Program-made: the position numbers and the translations under genes
Notes under the pieces: generated by a model
Seen by the model: only the letters and a program-made list of their open reading frames with translations
Database searches by the model: none
What the model was told of the DNA's origin: nothing
Source: Halorubrum ruber
Lineage (GTDB): Archaea > Halobacteriota > Halobacteria > Halobacteriales > Haloferacaceae
Reading direction: 5' to 3'
Assembly: GCF_018228765.1 (NCBI RefSeq)
Contig: NZ_CP073695.1
Span: 1,860,001 to 1,924,000 of the forward strand
DNA: 64,000 nt
Shown: positions 6,326 through 54,835 of the stretch, in pieces
How the letters are laid out: the number at the start of each line of letters is the position of its first letter
Position numbering within the stretch: the stretch's first letter is position 1

Positions 6326-7363
6326 ATGATCGAGGCCTCGGGGCTACGGAAGACCTACGGCGACTTCGCGGCCGTGGTCGACAGCGACTTCGCCGTCGAC
6401 GAGGGCGAGGTGTTCGGGATCGTCGGCCCGAACGGGGCCGGGAAGACGACGACGCTCAAGATACTCGCCGGCCTCGTCGAGCCGACCGAGGGCGAGGTGA
6501 CCGTCGCCGGGTTCGACGCCTCGGACCCCGAAATGCGGCGCCACCTCGGGTTCCTGCCGGAGGAGTCGCCGTTGTACGAGGAGATGACCGCGCTGTCGTA
6601 CCTCCGCTTCTTCGCCGACCTCTACGACGTGCCCCGGGAGGTCGCCGACGAGCGGATCGAGGCCGCGCTCGACCGCCTGGAACTGGACCACCGCGAGCGC
6701 CGCCTCGGCGACGTCTCGAAGGGGATGAAACGGAAGGTCGCCATCGCGCGCTCGCTCGTCAACGACCCGGACGTGCTGGTGTACGACGAGCCCGCCTCCG
6801 GGCTCGACCCCGTGACGACGAACTCAGTGCTGGCGTTCACCCGCGAGCTCCGCGAGACCGGGAAGACGGTCGTCTTCTCCGCGCACAACCTCTACCACGT
6901 CGAGTCCGTCTGCGACCGCGTCGTGGTGATGAACGAGGGGCGGATCGTCGCCCGCGGGAGCGTCGACGGGATCCGCGAGCGACACGGCGAGACGACCTAC
7001 CGCGTGTTCACGGACGTCGAGCCGACCGCGACGCCGGCGCTCGCGGACCTCGACGCGACGACCGAGGAGGTCGGCGACCGCTTCCGGACGGCGGTCCCGA
7101 GCATGGACGCGGTCGCCGCGGTCCGGGAGGCCGTCGGCGACGCCGGCGGCGAGGTCGTCGACATCCGGAGCCGCGAGCCGAGCCTCGAAGACGTGTTCCT
7201 CGACATCGTCGGCCGGCCGATGCCCGGGCGGTACACCGGCGACCTCGGCGGTGACGGAACCGAAGCTGCGAGCGACGCCGACGGCGATGGCGACGGCGAG
7301 GCCGACGGCGACGAACCGGAAACCGAAACGACGGAGGCGGCGACCACGGAGGCGACCGAGTGA
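6326..7363 (+). CDS. ABC transporter ATP-binding protein
   Basis: A 345-residue ATPase subunit. Walker A is GPNGAGKTT (34-42), the degenerate signature is DVSKGMKRKVAIARSL (129-144), Walker B is LVYDEPASGLDP (151-162), and an H-loop occurs in VVFSAHNLYHVE. This pattern belongs to the ABC-2/NatA-like export subfamily. The C-terminal 50 residues are acidic low complexity (many Asp/Gly/Glu). Its stop codon overlaps the next gene's GTG start by four bases, indicating translational coupling with the two permeases. Substrate unknown. Confidence 0.93.
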   Translation: MIEASGLRKTYGDFAAVVDSDFAVDEGEVFGIVGPNGAGKTTTLKILAGLVEPTEGEVTVAGFDASDPEMRRHLGFLPEESPLYEEMTALSYLRFFADLYDVPREVADERIEAALDRLELDHRERRLGDVSKGMKRKVAIARSLVNDPDVLVYDEPASGLDPVTTNSVLAFTRELRETGKTVVFSAHNLYHVESVCDRVVVMNEGRIVARGSVDGIRERHGETTYRVFTDVEPTATPALADLDATTEEVGDRFRTAVPSMDAVAAVREAVGDAGGEVVDIRSREPSLEDVFLDIVGRPMPGRYTGDLGGDGTEAASDADGDGDGEADGDEPETETTEAATTEATE

Positions 7364-9468
7364 TCGACAGGTTCCGCCGCGTCGGCCGACGGCTCGCGGT
7401 CGGCGTCCGCCGCGTCCTCCGGGTCGCCAGGTGGGAAACCGCCCGCGCGTCCGGGGGTGTCGACCGCCGCACGCTCGCGGCGGGCGTCGCCCTCCTCCTC
7501 GTCGCCGGCGGCGTCGTCGGCGTCGGCGTGGCGACGGGCGTCGCCGGCCTCGACGTCGACCAAGACGTGTACCGGGTCGGCGTCGACGCCGAGTCGCCGT
7601 ACGCGGACGCGATCGAGGACGCGCCGTCGCTGCGCCCGGTCCCGGCCGGGTCGGCGTCGCTCGGTGACCCCGCCGATGCGGTCGTGGTGACCGTGGTGGA
7701 ACCCGGCTCCGGCGACGACGGAGTGATCGACGCCGCCGACGTCGAGGAGGTCGTCGTCCGCGCGAGCGACACGCGGAAGGGCGAGGCGGCGGCCGCGTCG
7801 GTCCGCGAGGCCGTCGCGTCGCACAACGAGCGGCTGATGCGCGCCGAGCCGAATCAGACTGCCGCCTTTCCGGTCGTCGTTTCGCTCCGGTACGTCGGCC
7901 GAACGTCCGGCGTCGATGACGGCGCCACGCTCGGCGGGAACGACGGCGGCTCGACGAGCGGTTCGGGCGGAGGGAGCGACGGCGGGAGCGACGCGACCGA
8001 CTCCGACGGAGATGGCAGCGGTACCGACGCGGACGATACCGGATCTACTGAGTCCTCCGCGCCCGACTCCAATGGGGATGCCGACGCCGATGGCCCGTCC
8101 GGAGACGAGAGGACGAGCGGCGGGTCCGACGAGACCGACGGCGACGGCGACGGAAGCGCGACGGACGCCCCCGACACTACCGATGACGGCGCGGAGTCGG
8201 ACGACGGCGGCTTCGCGGTGCCGTCCATCGGTGGCGCGGCCTTCGGCGCGAACACCGTCGGCTCGCCCGGGTCGATCACGCCGCCGTTCCCGTTCACATC
8301 GCTGCTGTTGGCGTTCGCCTTCCTCGTGCCGATGAACTTCCTCATCCAGGCGTACGGCTCCTCGATCCTCGACGAGCGGACGAACCGACGCGGGGAGCCG
8401 CTGCTCGTCACGCCGCTGTCGCCGGCGGAGATCGTCGCCGGCAAGACGCTCCCGTACGCGGCGGCCGCCGCGGTCGTCACGAGCCTCATCGCGCTCCTCG
8501 TCGGCGGTGGGGCGCTCTCGGTGGTCGCGGTGGCGCCGGTCGCGGCGACGTTCCTCGGGGCCACCTTCGTCGGCGCGATGTTCGCGCGCTCGTTCAAGGA
8601 GCTCACCTTCGTGACGGTCGGCGTGAGCGTCCTGCTGACCACCTACGCGTTCGTGCCGGCCATCTTCACGAACGTGACGCCCGTCGCGCTCGTCTCGCCG
8701 CTGACGCTCGTCGTCTTCGACCTCCAGGGCGAGGCCGTCTCGGCCGGCGAGGTCCTCTTCTCGACCACGCCGATGGCGGTCGGCGCCGCGCTGCTGTTCG
8801 GCCTTGGCCTCGGCGTCTACCGCGAGGAGGACATGTTCTCGCAGAAGCCCGTGACGCGGAAGTTCCTCGACGCGCTCGCGGTGCGGCTCTCCGCTGTCCC
8901 GGTCGGCGGGGCGGTCGGCGGCGGGCTCCTCGACCGCGACCGACTCCGCGCGCTCGGCTCGGTCGCCTTCCTCACCGCCTGTACGATCCCCTTCGTGTTC
9001 GTCGCGGAACTGCTTGCCGTCGCGGTGCTGTTCGCGCTGCCGGTCACCGTGTCGATCCCGGTGCTGCTCGTGACCATCGCGTTCATCGAAGAGGTCGCCA
9101 AAAGTATCGGCCTCTACGCCGGCTTCGAGCGCGGCGTCTTCGAGCGGACCGATCGGGTCGCCCTCGCGGTCGGTCTCGCCTCCGGGACCGGGTTCTTCCT
9201 CGCGGAGAAGGCGACCGCGGTCGTTCAGGCGGTGGGGCTCACGGAGCTCTTCCTCGGGCGCGCCGCCTTCGCCGACGTGTCCGGGTTCTCCGGGCTGCCG
9301 CCGCTCGCCCTGGCGGCGCTGTTCTTCGCCCCGCTCATCCTCCACGTCGCCGCGACGAGCGTCGCCGCCCTCGGGGCGCGGCGCGGCCGGACCGCCTACG
9401 CGCTGGCGCTTACGCTGGCGACGCTGGGCCACGCCGCGTACAACGTCGGGGTGGTGAGCCTTGGATAG
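7360..9468 (+). CDS. ABC-2 type permease fused to a PrsW-like membrane protease domain
   Basis: A 702-residue membrane protein with GTG start. Residues about 40-60 form the first transmembrane helix and 60-185 an extracellular domain. Residues about 188-290 are a Ser/Gly/Asp/Thr linker, and 305-500 an ABC-2 permease core (FLVPMNFLIQAYGSSILDER). The last 180 residues resemble PrsW proteases: an EE pair at about 577-578 (FIEEVAKS), a second glutamate in GFFLAEKATA, and a His in LGHAAYN near residue 691. PrsW enzymes cleave membrane proteins within the bilayer, so this fused domain may process or quality-control cargo. The fusion is visible; its protease activity is inferred. Confidence 0.8.
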   Translation: MIDRFRRVGRRLAVGVRRVLRVARWETARASGGVDRRTLAAGVALLLVAGGVVGVGVATGVAGLDVDQDVYRVGVDAESPYADAIEDAPSLRPVPAGSASLGDPADAVVVTVVEPGSGDDGVIDAADVEEVVVRASDTRKGEAAAASVREAVASHNERLMRAEPNQTAAFPVVVSLRYVGRTSGVDDGATLGGNDGGSTSGSGGGSDGGSDATDSDGDGSGTDADDTGSTESSAPDSNGDADADGPSGDERTSGGSDETDGDGDGSATDAPDTTDDGAESDDGGFAVPSIGGAAFGANTVGSPGSITPPFPFTSLLLAFAFLVPMNFLIQAYGSSILDERTNRRGEPLLVTPLSPAEIVAGKTLPYAAAAAVVTSLIALLVGGGALSVVAVAPVAATFLGATFVGAMFARSFKELTFVTVGVSVLLTTYAFVPAIFTNVTPVALVSPLTLVVFDLQGEAVSAGEVLFSTTPMAVGAALLFGLGLGVYREEDMFSQKPVTRKFLDALAVRLSAVPVGGAVGGGLLDRDRLRALGSVAFLTACTIPFVFVAELLAVAVLFALPVTVSIPVLLVTIAFIEEVAKSIGLYAGFERGVFERTDRVALAVGLASGTGFFLAEKATAVVQAVGLTELFLGRAAFADVSGFSGLPPLALAALFFAPLILHVAATSVAALGARRGRTAYALALTLATLGHAAYNVGVVSLG

Positions 9469-10507
9469 CCGCCTGACGATCGCCGGGCGCGAGCTCGCCG
9501 GGCTGCGCGCGGAGAAGACGATCCTGCTCGCGATCGGGATCCAGCTGTTCATCGCGACCTTCTCGTCGTTCCTCGTCGTCGGGCTCGTCTCCATGTACGA
9601 CCCGGGCGCGCTCGACGGCGCGGAGATCGAGGTCGCGGCCGCGGGCGACGCGGTCGACGACTTAGAGCGCGCCGCGAGCGAGGTCCCGGGCGCCTCGGTC
9701 ACGCCGTACGACGACGCGGACGCCGCGCGGAGCGCCTTCGACCGGAACGCGGCCGATGCGGTGGTGGTCACGACCCGCACGGAGAGCGGGCGGGTGTCGA
9801 CCGCCGTCACCGCCCCGGACTCAACCGTGGAGACGACGGTGATCGTGGTGCAGCTGCGCGAGCTGCTGCGGACCTACGAGCTGAACGAGCGCGACGCCCG
9901 CGCCTCGTACCTGGAGGAGTCCCCGCTCCCCCTGCCCGACCGGAGCGACACCAGCCCGTACTTCACGTTCACGTACACCGTGTTGATCCCCCTGCTCGTC
10001 TTCCTCCCGGTGTTCATCTCGGGGTCGCTGATCGTCGACTCGATCACGGAGGAGTTGGATCAAGGAACCATGGAGCTGCTCCGGGTCGCGCCCGTCACGC
10101 TCGCCGAGATCGTCGACGGGAAGGCCGCCGCGGCGATCGGGATCGCTCCGGGCCAGGCCCTGCTGTGGCTACTCCTCCTCGAGGCGAACGGCACCTCGGT
10201 CGCGAACGTCGGCCCGATCTTGGCGCTGATGACCGCGCTGACGACGCTCGTCGTCGCGGTCGCGGTCGGCATCGCGGCCGTCGCGCCCGACCGGCAGGCG
10301 GCCCAGCTGCTCTACTCGGTGGCAGTCCTCGTGCTGTTCGGCGGCGCGACGGCGATGGCCGGCGGCCCCGCGAACGCGGTGGCGCGGCTCGCCATCGACA
10401 GCGCGGACGCGACGACCGGCGTCCTCGTGGTCGCGTACGCCGGCATCGCCGCGGCCGCGTACCTCGGCGTGCGGCGCGTCGTCGCGGTCGAGGGGTTCGG
10501 TCGCTGA
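9461..10507 (+). CDS. ABC-2 type permease, second subunit
   Basis: A 348-residue protein starting at TTG 9461, overlapping the previous gene by eight bases; an in-frame TGA just upstream rules out an earlier start. A first membrane helix (TILLAIGIQLFIATFSSFLVVG) is followed by a soluble extracellular domain of about 150 residues, then five helices with the ABC-2 motif SITEELDQGTMELLRVAPV. It would pair with the PrsW-fused subunit to form the membrane part of the exporter. Confidence 0.88.
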   Translation: MDSRLTIAGRELAGLRAEKTILLAIGIQLFIATFSSFLVVGLVSMYDPGALDGAEIEVAAAGDAVDDLERAASEVPGASVTPYDDADAARSAFDRNAADAVVVTTRTESGRVSTAVTAPDSTVETTVIVVQLRELLRTYELNERDARASYLEESPLPLPDRSDTSPYFTFTYTVLIPLLVFLPVFISGSLIVDSITEELDQGTMELLRVAPVTLAEIVDGKAAAAIGIAPGQALLWLLLLEANGTSVANVGPILALMTALTTLVVAVAVGIAAVAPDRQAAQLLYSVAVLVLFGGATAMAGGPANAVARLAIDSADATTGVLVVAYAGIAAAAYLGVRRVVAVEGFGR

Positions 10508-49192: not shown

Positions 49193-49527
49193 CTCCCCTA
49201 CTCATAATGTATGACCTCATACTACAGGATTCTGGTTACGTTTCGCTCTCGGCGTTCTTCGAAGACCGCTTGAGCCGCATTCCCTTCGGCGTCGAGATCG
49301 ACGTCGCTCTGTTGCTCAACGCTGCTCATAACCCCACCCCTGAGCCGGTGAAAAAGCGCAGAAACCTGTCAGTAGAAGGTAAAAACGGTTATATGAGGAG
49401 CGGGCCGGGCGCGATTGTGAACTACGAGAAGACGGTCGCTCGCTTCGCTCGCGCTGCGACTTCTCTACTTCAAATCGCTTCCGTCCGGTTCCCTCACCGC
49501 ATCGCTATCGCTCTGCGGTTCAGTGTA
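49193..49527. other. intergenic chromosome edge with degenerate attachment site
   Basis: No credible gene. At 49401-49422 a copy of the tRNA-Lys 3' end with one inserted G (CGGGCCGGGCGCGATT then GTGAAC) lies 127 bases before the main attL. It is probably the scar of an earlier integration. Confidence 0.55.
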
Positions 49528-49548
49528 CGGGCCGGGCGCGATTTGAAC
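49528..49548. mobile_element. attL: duplicated 3' end of tRNA-Lys
   Basis: CGGGCCGGGCGCGATTTGAA plus C is identical to 54762-54782, the discriminator, acceptor strand and T-arm part of the tRNA-Lys gene. The tyrosine integrase gene starts 92 bases inside. Confidence 0.88.
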
Positions 49549-49639
49549 GCCTCACGCCGTGTACCCGCCGTACACGGGCGCTCGGCAGGTGATGGATACC
49601 GGGAGATCGCTGTTGGTGAGTTGAGCGCGAGGCCCACCA

Positions 49640-50662
49640 ATGACAACCGATCTCAAGCCGATCGATCCGCAGGAAGCAAAGGAGTGGTATCTCGAAAACC
49701 GTCGCGGTGAATTGGCGGATGCGACCTACAAAGCGCACAAGTATCGACTCTCTCCCTTCGTGGAGTGGTGCGATACCGAAGGAGACGTGAGCAACATAAA
49801 CGACCTAAGCGGTCGGCACTTCCACCAGTACAAGAAGTGGCGACGAGAGAAGGGCGACTGTAACAAGGTCACGATGGCGACGCAACTGAGTACGCTCAAG
49901 GTCTTCATCGACTTCTGCGAAAGCATTGACGCAGTCCGTCCCGGTCTGTCCGACTACATCGATCCGCCGACAATGAAGAACAAGGAGGATGTGAACGACG
50001 ACTACGTCGATGCGGAAACCGCTCAGGCGATTATCGAGTACCAACGGAACTTCAACTACTCCCAACGCGAACACGTCATCTTCGAGCTACTGTGGCACAC
50101 GGGGATGCGAAACGGTGCGCTTCGAGCTATCGATCTCGACGACTTCGACCAAGATGAGCGCACTCTCGAAGTACATCACCGTCCGGATCGAGGAACCCCG
50201 CTTAAGAACGGGAAAGAAGGCCAGCGTGTCGTCTCTCTCAAACCGAAGGTCAATCAGATCGTGCGGGATTACATCGACCATCACCGATTCGGTAAAACGG
50301 ACGATTATGGACGCGAACCGCTACTAACGACTCGCCAAGGCCGCATCTCGAAGACGTCCATTCGGAGCAACTGCTACCGTGCTACTCGCCCCTGCGAGTA
50401 TGGGCTTGACTGTCCCCACGATAGAAACCCCGACGACTGCGAGGCCGCAAGTTCCTATCACGCGGCCTCAAAGTGTCCGTCCTCCCACGCTTCGCACTCG
50501 TTGAGGAAAGGAGCAATCACGCACGCACGAAGGAGCGAAGTTCCGATCGAAGCGGTGTCAGAGCGGATGGACGTGAGTGCTGACGTGCTGAAGAAGCACT
50601 ACGACAAGCGCACTAAGAGACAGGAAATGAAGAACCGACGGGGTTACTTCGACAACATCTAA
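49640..50662 (+). CDS. tyrosine recombinase / integrase
   Basis: A 340-residue phage-type integrase. The SAM-like DNA-binding domain covers about 15-100. The catalytic domain has Arg157 (TGMRNGALRAID), HxxR at His286-Arg289 (HSLRKGAITHARR) and the nucleophile Tyr321 (LKKHYDKRTKRQ). A Cys-rich insert (CEYGLDCPHDRNPDDCEA) is typical of haloarchaeal integrases and probably binds zinc. Its gene lies beside attL, pointing into the element. Confidence 0.93.
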   Translation: MTTDLKPIDPQEAKEWYLENRRGELADATYKAHKYRLSPFVEWCDTEGDVSNINDLSGRHFHQYKKWRREKGDCNKVTMATQLSTLKVFIDFCESIDAVRPGLSDYIDPPTMKNKEDVNDDYVDAETAQAIIEYQRNFNYSQREHVIFELLWHTGMRNGALRAIDLDDFDQDERTLEVHHRPDRGTPLKNGKEGQRVVSLKPKVNQIVRDYIDHHRFGKTDDYGREPLLTTRQGRISKTSIRSNCYRATRPCEYGLDCPHDRNPDDCEAASSYHAASKCPSSHASHSLRKGAITHARRSEVPIEAVSERMDVSADVLKKHYDKRTKRQEMKNRRGYFDNI

Positions 50663-50747
50663 CAGGAAGCGGATGAGCATTGAGGGTGATTACTGACGAT
50701 CCCCTCACAGCTACCCGACTACATTCAACAAGCCGCATCTGGAGTGT

Positions 50748-50846
50748 TTTCTTTTATAAACCATAGTTTCTCTATATTTTGCTATCCATCTGCCTTACTG
50801 CGATTCTCGCAACATAACTTAGAGGAGTGGGGTTGTGTGTTGTGTG
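50748..50846 (+). repeat. three-block element repeat, copy R1
   Basis: Block 1 TTTCTTTTATAA (50748-50759), block 2 TCGCAACATAACTTAG (50807-50822) and block 3 GTGTGTTGTGTG (50835-50846) recur with the same spacing at 52491-52588. The sequence between blocks is not conserved. Block 1 looks like a TATA box. From the integrase stop to 50897 no gene is present. Confidence 0.8.
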
Positions 50847-50897
50847 GATATGAGAGTTGTAGATCCACACTAAGAGTAGAGGGAAACCCAACGAAAC

Positions 50898-51083
50898 ATG
50901 TGGTACCTATTCCGACTCAATGAATCGACACACCGGATAGAACACTACCCGGATGTACCACCAGCATATATGAGTAAGTTCCTCCGAGCAATTTCTCGTC
51001 TGGAGTCTGGAATTTGGGCTACTGAGTGCGACATTATTCCCCGTATAGGGGAGAATCGAAACGGAGAGAATGGAAGGTCGTGA
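50898..51083 (+). CDS. small ORF of the mobile element, possibly broken
   Basis: MWYLFRLNESTHRIEHYPDV opens a 61-residue frame ending NRNGENGRS. After the TGA at 51081 the same frame stays open for 34 more codons (QLPAFVSRNPMTCHRGRIVE, ending LLEARND), so it may be a longer gene cut by a stop codon. No family is recognised. A G/T-rich stretch and repeat R1 lie upstream. From 51187 to 51305 no gene is seen. Confidence 0.35.
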   Translation: MWYLFRLNESTHRIEHYPDVPPAYMSKFLRAISRLESGIWATECDIIPRIGENRNGENGRS

Positions 51084-51305
51084 CAGCTCCCTGCTTTCGT
51101 CTCACGCAATCCCATGACGTGCCACCGGGGACGCATCGTGGAGTATTTGGACGGTATGAGTAGCCTTCTGGAGGCGCGTAATGACTAAAATTCTCTTTAT
51201 CCCACGAAACAGTATTCAGCGCCTTCCCAACAGGTGGTGCGGGATCAGATGTGAAAGACCCGAGAGATACTCATACAGTTTGGAGCCAAGGACATTAGAG
51301 GAGAA

Positions 51306-52373
51306 TTAAGAGAACCTTTCCTCTTCTCCTATGAGAGGATCTCCCATTTCCCTGTTTTCTGGAGTGTGGAAATTCCAGCTATCTCCACCAAATTCTACTT
51401 CGACTAATTTTTCCGGGCGATATTCCTGATTGTGGTATTCATTCGATAGTTCAGCCAAAATCTGTGCGTTGCCATCGCCATACATAGCTTCAAAGACTGT
51501 ATTTGCTGTATCTATATCGTGAGGTCTTACATTCGGCTCGTCATCAGCACCAAAAATTACATAGCTCCAATCCTGTAATTTGTCAGCTCGGTAATCACGC
51601 ACTTCTTCTTCAGTAGCATCATTATTTTCTATACCTCTCTCAATTAGAGCTTGTACTGATTGGTAATCCTGAGCAACATTCTGTGCCCAATCTGTATTAT
51701 CTCTAAGGTCCGCCAGGTATTCTGGTTCTCCACTTCCAGGCCTATTTACTTGTCTGTTGTATGTTTCTGGGTCTGGGTCCAAGATTACTGGTTGGCTCTG
51801 TAGTTCTCCGTTTTCTACTTTGTAAAATTCGAATATTGATTCGCTATCACTTGTGAAACTCCAGTTCCGGTTGAGTACTACAGAGTTTTCTGCGTTGTCT
51901 CTTTTTCCTTTTATTCTGTGATACTCTGAAAAGATAGATGCGTAGTTTTCTTTTGAGAGTTCCTCTACAAGTGCGTCTCTTTCCTCTTCTACGGTTTCTG
52001 CTCCTTCCAGTACGCTGTTGATTGTTTCTGCTCTTGTTGCCGATACAGGCCCCGCTTCGATCATCTGATCGGTGTAGGCCCCGAGGCCGTTCAGTGGTAT
52101 TCCGTTGCGAGTATCTTTCTCCCACTGAGGAGTCTGTTCTTCTTCCTCTTGCCCTTCCTCTGGATCAGAACTGTTGTCTTCTGCGGATTCAGAGTCACCT
52201 GTATCTGAACCATTACCAGCAGGATTTGTGTCAGATTCTTCGAGTCCACTGTTTCCCTCCTCTTCAGTAGAACCGGTATTTCCCGTACAACCTGCTATTG
52301 CTCCTGCCCCGGCGATTGTAAGAACTCCTCTTGCGAACGACCTCCTGTCTGAACTCGGTTGTTTTTCACTCAT
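51306..52373 (-). CDS. Tat-dependent lipoprotein of the mobile element
   Basis: A 355-residue exported lipoprotein. SSDRRSFARGVLTIAGAGAI is a twin-arginine signal and AIAGCTG a lipobox, so the mature protein starts at Cys near residue 29 and is lipid-anchored outside the cell. Residues 30-83 are an acidic Glu/Ser/Asp linker. The rest (WEKDTRNGIPLNGLGAYTDQ and on) is globular, with no named domain that I recognise. AT-rich codons match the element. Confidence 0.75.
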   Translation of the reverse strand: MSEKQPSSDRRSFARGVLTIAGAGAIAGCTGNTGSTEEEGNSGLEESDTNPAGNGSDTGDSESAEDNSSDPEEGQEEEEQTPQWEKDTRNGIPLNGLGAYTDQMIEAGPVSATRAETINSVLEGAETVEEERDALVEELSKENYASIFSEYHRIKGKRDNAENSVVLNRNWSFTSDSESIFEFYKVENGELQSQPVILDPDPETYNRQVNRPGSGEPEYLADLRDNTDWAQNVAQDYQSVQALIERGIENNDATEEEVRDYRADKLQDWSYVIFGADDEPNVRPHDIDTANTVFEAMYGDGNAQILAELSNEYHNQEYRPEKLVEVEFGGDSWNFHTPENREMGDPLIGEEERFS

Positions 52374-52490
52374 CTCTCAGGTTGGGTTCGTTATCCTACA
52401 TGTGTGCGATACTGTACTTAAATATTGTAGACGAAGTAACCAGACAGGTGAGTCATTCTCTGGTTGGACGTTATCCGCTGGAAGCCCCTC

Positions 52491-52588
52491 TTTCTTTTAT
52501 AAGTGATAACAGCGATAGGGAAACGCACCCCGGCGCAGTACAGCGGTTTCGCAACATAACTTAGTGGTTGTTGGTGGTGTGTTGTGTG
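52491..52588 (+). repeat. three-block element repeat, copy R2
   Basis: Same blocks as R1: TTTCTTTTATAA (52491-52502), TCGCAACATAACTTAG (52549-52564) and GTGTGTTGTGTG (52577-52588). Block distances are 58 and 28 against 59 and 28 in R1. It lies between the lipoprotein start and the primase-like gene end. Confidence 0.8.
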
Positions 52589-52599
52589 TAGGAGAAGGG

Positions 52600-54219
52600 T
52601 TAGATGGGTTTGTCCGGAACATCAACGTCTTCGTATTCGGTGAACTTCGGTTCCTCTACGATCCCTCGAAGGAACTCCCATGTTACATCCGGCTTGAACT
52701 CCGACCCGTACTGTTCCTCAAACCAGTCCCACGTCGGTTGCCACCCTTTGAGGAGGTGACGACAGGCTACACGTATTCGTTCTTGATGGGTAAGTGACTC
52801 AATGTCATCCAGTTCGGCCTTTCGTTGGAGGTCTTCAGCCGGATTGCCCGAGTTCTTTCGCGCCGGCCAGATCTCCTTGGATTCGCTGGTAGATGTTTCC
52901 CCGCTCGATGTTGCCGCCTTTGTCGAGCCGGACGCACCAACGTCGTACCCTTGATCGGAGAGGTACTTCCGAGCGGCATCACGGCCTCCGTCTTCACGGC
53001 TGAGGTGGAAGCCTGTTTTTAGCGCCTCGATCTTCGTGACTGAGTGGATGATGGAGCTTCGACTTCGACCACCGTGAATTACGACGTAGTCGCCGGTTCG
53101 ATATTCGCCGTTGATCCACTTCTCGTAGTCCTTTCGCGCTCCCTCTGAAAGCTGGAGTGGGCCGTGTTCTGACTCTTTCGTGAAGCTCTCATCACAGCCA
53201 ACCGCCTCGATGAACCGAACTGGCACCATCGGCGCACGGGAGCGACGATCCTCTTGAACGAATACTCCACCCTTCACCTCCACTACCGCGAGACTCCGGG
53301 GGTTTCCTCCTGCGTGTGCGTACGGAGAGAACTCCTTCGCGTTGTACATCGACCACTCTGGTACATCGTAGGTATTCTCTGGGTATTCCCTCTGCTCAAT
53401 GAGTGGCGTCTCAATATCGCTCTCAGGACTGTCCAGAGTGAGCGCGAACTCTTCCCCGTCCAGTTGTGGGGAGAACGTCGCTTCGAGCATATCGAGGTAC
53501 GAGTCGGGGTATTCGTGGTCTTTACCAGCAGTTCGGATGATCCGGTCGTTCTCCCATGACGGATCGATTCGCACCTTTTGGAACTCGCCAGCACTTTTTC
53601 GGTGGGTTGCTCCGGGAAGTCGGAATTGCTGTTTCGGCTTGTAGATCCCCGTGTCGAGTTCCGCACCAGTCTCCTCACAGAACTGCTCAGCTTTCCCCCG
53701 AATTTCCGTCAACTGCGCATGTGTGAAGAATTTCGGGAGATGAACGTGGATCGACCGACTACCCGAATACCAGAACGTACACTCAGCGGGAGAAACACTC
53801 AGTTCCTCCTCCACGAACCCCCGAATCCACTCGACCATCGTAGGGAAAGAGACGCCGTCATCGCGAGCGTCACTCTCGGCATAGACAGGATAACAGACGC
53901 GGCCAGCGCCCTCGCACTCTCCTTGGATCTCCTTGACGATGTTCGCACTCCCCTTGATGGCGTAGGGGGAGTCAGCGAACTTCTCCAGCTGAGCGAGTTG
54001 GTCGTCCGTGACGAAGTAGATCGCACTCGATGTAATTGCCCCCTCAGGAACAGGCTCGTACAGCGACCGGAGTTTCAGTTCTTGTGTCTGACCGCCCCCA
54101 TCCCGTGGAAACCCATACCGAACGAGTGGTGTCGTATTCGGATGAGCCGTCTCGAACCAGTCAGTAACAGTTGTCTTGCCACTATTCGCTGTCGTGCGCG
54201 TAGATACGTCAATCGCCAT
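52600..54219 (-). CDS. archaeo-eukaryotic primase-like replication protein
   Basis: A 539-residue protein with a DNA-primase small-subunit-like core. The motif WYSGSRSIHVHLPKFF (150-165) matches the SGSxGxHxH signature of primase-polymerases. Flanking regions RVCYPVYAESDARDDGVSF and GIYKPKQQFRLPGATHRK fit nucleotide-binding and basic motifs. An acidic motif I (DxD) is not clear. The C-terminus has Ser/Thr-rich linkers and a helical domain (VACRHLLKGWQPTWDWFEEQYG). It likely primes element replication. Confidence 0.7.
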   Translation of the reverse strand: MAIDVSTRTTANSGKTTVTDWFETAHPNTTPLVRYGFPRDGGGQTQELKLRSLYEPVPEGAITSSAIYFVTDDQLAQLEKFADSPYAIKGSANIVKEIQGECEGAGRVCYPVYAESDARDDGVSFPTMVEWIRGFVEEELSVSPAECTFWYSGSRSIHVHLPKFFTHAQLTEIRGKAEQFCEETGAELDTGIYKPKQQFRLPGATHRKSAGEFQKVRIDPSWENDRIIRTAGKDHEYPDSYLDMLEATFSPQLDGEEFALTLDSPESDIETPLIEQREYPENTYDVPEWSMYNAKEFSPYAHAGGNPRSLAVVEVKGGVFVQEDRRSRAPMVPVRFIEAVGCDESFTKESEHGPLQLSEGARKDYEKWINGEYRTGDYVVIHGGRSRSSIIHSVTKIEALKTGFHLSREDGGRDAARKYLSDQGYDVGASGSTKAATSSGETSTSESKEIWPARKNSGNPAEDLQRKAELDDIESLTHQERIRVACRHLLKGWQPTWDWFEEQYGSEFKPDVTWEFLRGIVEEPKFTEYEDVDVPDKPI

Positions 54220-54761
54220 TATATGAAGTGCTGAAGGCTCTCAGCGGTTCGTTATCCACTCTCCTCAATGCGTTGACACTCCGAGAGGAACTCGATAGTT
54301 GCGACTCGTGAGTTGAGAGTCCCGCGAGAATCTGCCTTCAATTTAATGACAACGTCCAAGCGGAAATAGGTACCGGAAATCCACAGACTGCGTCGATGTA
54401 GCCGTCAAATGATTAGAGAGATGGAGGGTGATCTTGCGCGGTTGAACCCCCGGAGTTGAGGGCAGATGTGGTTAAAGAATGGACTACTTCGTCCAGAACT
54501 CCTCACTTCGTAGCTCTCATAGAGACAGTACACCGGAATATCCCCCAGTTCATACGCGCGCTCAAAGGTGTCAAATTCGAGGATGTATAGGCTGACTAAA
54601 ATCGGCTAAGACGTAACTCGGGTATAGCATCGGGTCGCACCACATACGAAACGAACTGACGCCGATTATCGGGGTATTCCCGAACCTTCTAATGGCCCTA
54701 ATGCGTAGATAGAGGTAGTTCAGCCGCTAACAGCCTGACTCGGTATCCGTCCTTCAGAAAG
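54220..54761. other. element intergenic region with a short open frame
   Basis: On the minus strand 54252-54359 reads LDVVIKLKADSRGTLNSRVA followed by TIEFLSECQRIEESG and a stop. It has only a TTG start and an upstream TGA, and looks like the tail of a protein. The rest, up to the tRNA, shows no gene. It may carry the replication origin or integrase arm sites, but I see no clear iterons. Confidence 0.3.
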
Positions 54762-54835
54762 CGGGCCGGGCGCGATTTGAACACGCGACCGACGGATTAA
54801 GAGTCCGTCGCTCTCCCTAACTGAGCTACCGGCCC
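54762..54835 (-). tRNA. tRNA-Lys (anticodon CTT); its 3' end is attR
   Basis: Seventy-four bases form a full cloverleaf. GGGCCGG pairs with CCGGCCC (discriminator G), the D arm has GCTC/GAGC, the anticodon stem ACGGA/TCCGT closes the loop CTCTTAA giving anticodon CTT, and the T arm is GCGTG-TTCAAAT-CGCGC. The 3' 21 bases (54762-54782) are duplicated at 49528, showing integration into this gene. Confidence 0.95.

Follow-up and report, generated by a model that had tools for sequence, protein, structure and literature searches.

The window analyzed here, a stretch of 64,000 nucleotides, belongs to the haloarchaeal genome of Halorubrum ruber (3.02 Mb, one contig), and contains an integrated mobile element in which the repeats described below are found (Table 1). 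A 21-bp direct repeat, CGGGCCGGGCGCGATTTGAAC, starts at 49528 and again at 54762, and its right copy coincides with the 3' end of the tRNA-Lys(CTT) gene. A third, partial att-like copy (GCGGGCCGGGCGCGATT, 49400–49416) lies 128 bp to the left of attL and was perhaps left behind by a previous integration into this tRNA-Lys gene. The element encodes an integrase, a lipoprotein-like protein, and a protein that we named Rep. When the lipoprotein-like ORF was compared with its counterpart in the related element L038, the N-terminus was found to be conserved and the body to be diverging fast, with much of it at 50–80% nucleotide identity; the flanks are about 90% identical, and the ORF is likely an exchanged cargo.

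Table 1. Features of the integrated element and of the two repeat copies (window coordinates).
Feature	Position	Strand	Remarks
Integrated mobile element, 5.2 kb	49528..54782		Bounded by a 21-bp direct repeat
Tyrosine integrase, 340 aa	49640..50662	+	Pfam Phage_integrase 2.1e-10; PHROG integrase 2.8e-31
Copy 1, block 1, TATA box of predicted promoter	50748..50759	+	TTTATA 50753-50758
Copy 1, conserved leader, predicted +1 (about 50784) to following GG	50784..50826	+	Core 50807-50822; alignment; profile
Copy 1, G/T-rich tract	50823..50850	+	Holds GTGTGTTGTGTG 50835-50846
Lipoprotein-like cargo ORF, 355 aa	51306..52373	-	Tat/lipobox-like N-terminus; differs among relatives
Copy 2, block 1, TATA box of predicted promoter	52491..52502	+	TTTATA 52496-52501
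Copy 2, conserved leader, predicted +1 (52527, ACCCC) to TGG	52527..52567	+	Core 52549-52564; alignment; profile
Copy 2, G/T-rich tract	52568..52590	+	Holds GTGTGTTGTGTG 52577-52588
Putative Rep, archaeo-eukaryotic-primase-fold (AEP-fold) protein, 539 aa	52600..54219	-	AlphaFold model and weak Pfam match
tRNA-Lys(CTT)	54761-54835		Integration site of the 5.2-kb element

Rep had no clear match in Pfam, PHROG, plasmid or phage records, and its relatives were absent from the plasmid collection and from the phage records searched. A weak match to Pfam DNA_primase_S was obtained for 3 of 10 relatives. In the AlphaFold model (mean pLDDT 79), residues 17–257 resemble primase small subunits (Pri1/PriS; Z up to 11.3, rmsd 3.5, 191 aligned), with a Z of 10.5 for archaeal PriS; a function in replication is assumed for the protein. 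No Walker A motif, the feature sought as a criterion for an SF3 helicase, was present in any of 22 Rep relatives. Haloarchaea go unmentioned in the main text of a survey of AEP proteins (PMC5862659).

The original prediction described a repeat of three blocks with fixed spacing inside a mobile element, and our analysis confirmed both its presence and its location. The blocks TTTCTTTTATAA (50748 and 52491), TCGCAACATAACTTAG (50807 and 52549), and GTGTGTTGTGTG (50835 and 52577) each occur exactly twice in the window, with spacings of 59/28 and 58/28, and both sets lie in the 5.2-kb element bounded by the direct repeat at tRNA-Lys. A chance repeat is ruled out by the expected and observed counts: for the 16-mer core TCGCAACATAACTTAG with up to three mismatches, chance predicts 0.03 occurrences in the window, against two seen, and for TTTCTTTTATAA with up to two mismatches it predicts 0.11 occurrences, against three seen, two of them exact. 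The same follows from a profile of 34 copies, whose training set includes both window copies and which matches only these two sites of the window (E = 1.2e-18 for copy 1 and 3e-19 for copy 2). A recent internal duplication was likewise rejected, because the spacer between the TATA box and the predicted transcription start is randomized between copies of one element.

To find further copies, 391 haloarchaeal genomes were searched with a pattern allowing up to two mismatches; there were many matches, and their flanks were read to separate true copies from chance matches. Unlike the latter, the true copies all have common surroundings. Forty copies were collected, one of which (L049, 8216) is decayed and lacks a TATA box; the 39 intact copies come from about 25 genomes that represent several haloarchaeal families. 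Copies are present on contigs of Halobacterium salinarum DSM 3754, Natrinema gari JCM 14663, and Halorubrum persicum C49, among others. With the 34-copy profile, some two dozen genomes gave about 35 matches below 1e-8, and genome G411 gave three further copies. The plasmid collection contained no copy of the unit, and the pattern of TATA box plus core had zero matches among viral contigs. Virus-borne copies were also discarded as a candidate, since the exact 16-mer occurs in only five viral contigs, each time without the TATA and leader context.

The recurrence in related elements, on which the original prediction had been staked, extends to two of the three blocks: blocks 1 and 2 recur with their spacing kept, and block 3 recurs only as composition. 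In all 39 intact copies, TTTATA or a close variant stands 52–55 nt before the core, according to the alignment and the measured distances, and in most of them A(C/T)CC follows 31–32 nt downstream of the first base of the TATA box, the position expected for the initiation of a haloarchaeal transcript. A transcript start had been predicted about 25 bases after block 1, and it is at this position (A-CCC, 22–23 nt before block 2) that sequence conservation resumes, so that the conserved region is wider than the blocks first noted. It begins as ACCCCnnCGCCGTACnGCG(n)TTCTCGCAACATAACTTAGTGG and passes into a C-poor, UGU/GUG-rich tract that avoids TTT; the order after A(C/T)CC is CGCCGTACnGCG(n)TTC, the core, and TGG. 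The spacer between the TATA box and +1 is unconserved even within an element, with about 17 of 22 positions differing. The TATA box at a fixed distance, together with the conservation from +1, points to block 1 as a promoter and to block 2 as the core of a transcribed leader, whereas block 3, to judge from the alignment of relatives, is only a G/T-rich tract without conserved sequence.

The roughly 20–25 nt downstream of TGG have a G+T content of 77–89%; purines dominate the following 20 nt, in which C is scarce. The tract has an excess of TGT (z 12) and GTG (z 6), and TTT is avoided (9 seen vs. 54 expected). Runs of T help to stop archaeal transcription; a T-rich strand free of TTT therefore suggests that transcription passes through the tract. 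The T/A-rich TATA box, situated where the start site predicts it, at about -31 to -26, resembles those of haloarchaeal promoters, for which a CGAAA BRE consensus has been described (PMC4983044). The unit differs from these promoters in that inspection revealed no clear CGAAA-type BRE upstream of the TATA box (the bases there are mostly TTC(T/G)), and in having a conserved leader after +1, which ordinary promoters lack. Farther upstream, the rep-side copies of L040, L048, L054–L056, and the window (about 52466–52487) have a partly conserved block like GTTGGnnGCTGGAAGCC, a possible activator site. The strongest conclusion of our analysis is that each copy is, very probably, a promoter with a conserved transcribed leader. 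The original prediction had named three possible functions, namely a promoter with a small RNA, a replication origin, and a protein-binding array. Of these, the promoter component has good support from the TATA box in 39 of 39 intact copies and the conservation at +1; the other proposals are weighed below.

The copies have a preferred place and orientation. The 18 Rep-bearing elements contain 31 copies, 30 of which lie on the strand opposite to rep, and 15 of the 18 have one copy 51–301 nt beyond the rep stop codon and facing rep; in the window, the core of copy 2 lies 51 nt beyond this stop and is convergent with the gene. The remaining copies of the Rep-bearing elements are found just beyond the Rep start, pointing away from it, or elsewhere. 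In the element L182, which was found later, Rep is flanked on either side by copies, and these too lie on the strand opposite to it. The orientation of the integrase relative to the leader copies varies among elements. The fixed orientation against rep fits an RNA or an origin.

Copies of the unit accompany Rep relatives with E below 1e-200, and more distant relatives are without them by the profile, except for L127, where a weak and divergent but well-placed copy lies 38 nt beyond the Rep start. A candidate in another distant relative, L126, was dropped because of its wrong TATA spacing. The elements L167, L168, and L169 carry copies, and no primase-type Rep was detected in those genomes; the unit is therefore not tied to one replication protein. 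In L167, the usual place of the primase-type Rep is occupied by a 624-aa protein (6979–8853, minus strand), possibly an alternative replication protein, which has an ALPASGKS motif resembling a P-loop and a winged helix at its C-terminus; the integrase type and the leader of this element are as in the Rep-bearing ones.

The copies of one element are more alike in their cores than those of different elements (1.1 vs. 2.5 mismatches over 16 positions; p = 3e-4), whereas the spacers between TATA and +1 differ as much within elements as between them (p = 0.91). Core variants present in both copies of one element include ACACAG (L044), CACAATAG (L079), and ACGTAG (L058). Since core variants are common to an element despite randomized spacers, one factor probably reads all of its copies. 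This pattern suggests that the copies are old relatives held together at the core, with one recognizer per element, and the co-variation fits recognition by a single trans-acting factor. Gene conversion limited to the core, or the shared descent of related elements, may also account for the sharing of core variants. The distances between Rep proteins and between cores are weakly correlated (Mantel r = 0.34, p = 0.045).

For a possible RNA structure of the leader, the folding results were mixed. A GCG-loop-CGC hairpin can form in 97% of cells, a level reached by 146 of 500 shuffles; the pairing is kept mostly via C-to-U changes that leave G-U pairs, and one double change only was seen. A second hairpin, CGC-NGUACN-GCG, was rejected, because its pairs (90%) are no better than those of shuffled sequences. 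The folding z-scores of the leaders are inconsistent (-3.2 to +1.25, the latter for the RNA of copy 2), and neither the alignment of copies nor the fold of copy 2 contains a large conserved helix or stem-loop. Matches of the window to Rfam 15 are tRNAs only, with the best sub-threshold match at E = 0.66, so that a known RNA family, at the Rfam gathering score, is ruled out. The complement of the core, with up to three mismatches, was not found elsewhere in the window, which makes a simple antisense action of the core unlikely. To our knowledge, the unit bears no resemblance to a CRISPR-repeat mimic. The put RNAs of phage HK022 and the nut RNAs of lambda are short conserved leader RNAs with which two or more transcripts of a single mobile element open. 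In this the present predicted leaders are similar to them, but this is a resemblance only: put and nut are bacterial, and antitermination is a feature of theirs.

The coding potential downstream of the copies was also considered. A leader peptide or a conserved stop codon inside the core was dropped, as the copies do not share a reading frame running from +1 and the stop is missing from some of them. Copy 2 has no substantial gene on the plus strand downstream, and its transcript would therefore be noncoding or antisense. A 61-aa frame downstream of copy 1 is broken by a 1-nt indel relative to the near-identical L038 element, which argues against coding there. In L039, L040, L055, and L058, a same-strand cargo ORF starts about 100–260 nt after an extra copy, and thus not every transcript need be noncoding. 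The gene following a same-strand copy in L040 (5436–9272, plus strand) encodes 1278 aa, and its weak PHROG matches include DNA methyltransferases. In L044 (about 9470–9620), a long TTGCTG/TTGTTGCTGATGCTG simple repeat lies directly downstream of a leader copy. The same-strand ORFs could mean that small or cargo protein genes use the units as their promoters and 5' untranslated leaders. This is very improbable, as most elements, including that of the window, have no conserved same-strand ORF after the copies, the main copy faces rep, and the 61-aa frame is broken.

Based on these results, we propose the following model. Transcription would start at the A of ACCC, 31–32 nt past the first base of the TATA box, and the RNA would open with about 42 conserved nt, consisting of the possible small GCG-loop-CGC hairpin and a near-invariant, unpaired-looking core, UCGCAACAUAACUUAG, before continuing into the C-poor UGU/GUG-rich stretch without U-runs. 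The one to three units of an element, placed opposite to rep with the main unit just beyond the rep stop and facing the gene, may yield short noncoding or antisense transcripts, or leaders. A common, element-specific factor may read these transcripts through the core, and the units may thereby control the replication module (its copy number or induction), at least in part by convergent transcription into rep. We give this reading as a whole, promoter-leader units whose transcripts are read by a common factor and control the replication module, about an even chance. Taken separately, an action as RNA rather than as a DNA site is somewhat favored, and our judgment on a role for the replication module, which is suggested by position and orientation, is evenly balanced.

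The main rival to a leader RNA is a replication origin, in which the unit by rep would be a Rep-binding or priming site with a GTG-rich strand, perhaps opened or primed by transcription from the TATA promoter; we regard this as a real but clearly less probable alternative. The origins of pRN1 (PMC4234260) and SNJ2 (PMC13107129) lie just downstream of rep, and the primase of pRN1 starts at GTG, a motif enriched in the tract of the unit. The primase fold of Rep, the copy near the rep stop in 15 of 18 elements, and the weak correlation of core and Rep divergence are also in favor of an origin. On the other hand, elements have two or three copies, some of them distant from rep; the unit has a TATA box at a fixed distance and the +1 anatomy; there is no large stem-loop and no helicase motif in rep; in L167 the unit is associated with another putative replication protein; and the more distant Rep relatives are without it, bar the weak copy by the rep of L127. 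A transcription-dependent origin would unite the origin and transcript readings.

The two known origins compare with the unit as follows. The pRN1 origin is a single stem-loop of approximately 100 nt, poorly conserved in sequence, downstream of the primase-type rep orf904 (PMC4234260). Our elements are similar to pRN1 in being small and archaeal, with an AEP-fold rep, GTG motifs, and a conserved cis region about 50–300 nt beyond the rep stop. However, the rep of pRN1 has an SF3 helicase and the present Rep no helicase (Walker A) motif, and in place of one stem-loop the unit has a conserved sequence, a fixed TATA box and +1, and one to three copies. The rolling-circle origin of SNJ2 and the betapleolipoviruses is located downstream of repSNJ2 (PMC13107129); it shares with the unit the haloarchaeal host and a conserved element just beyond rep, adjoining it in many genomes. 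As described, the two are set apart by their proteins, a Rep_trans-like endonuclease in SNJ2 and an AEP-fold protein here, and by the nick-site hairpin, which is not apparent in the unit.

Another alternative is that positions +1 to +42 form a DNA operator, through which an element-encoded regulator silences or activates two or three promoters together. The core variants co-vary among the copies of an element, as they would for the sites of one DNA-binding regulator, and the location over the start site suits a repressor. We nevertheless consider an operator distinctly unlikely, as a duplex operator needs neither conservation from the predicted +1 nor the strand-specific, TTT-free UGU tract that follows; furthermore, there is a 1-nt length change inside the conserved part, and a non-exhaustive search identified no regulator gene common to all elements.

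Returning to the leader reading, the promoter-plus-leader unit appears to be undescribed in Rfam and the literature searched; the core sequence is absent from the text of the papers, a limited set, so that an earlier description is possible. A bolder interpretation, which we hold to be rather doubtful, is a new class of archaeal mobile-element leader RNA: two or three transcripts per element with identical starts, whose UCGCAACAUAACUUAG core and UGU tract would be bound by an element-specific factor, or would serve to prime or license replication and so couple the start of transcription to the replication of primase-type elements.

Little is known about how small archaeal integrative elements control their replication. 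The position and orientation of the compact, highly conserved cis unit link it to a family of primase-type replication genes for which the phage and plasmid collections searched contained no match, and the unit supplies exact predicted start sites and bases for mutation. Should the unit act as RNA, archaeal mobile elements would provide a rare example of a conserved noncoding leader; should it be an origin, it would allow the construction of new haloarchaeal shuttle vectors.
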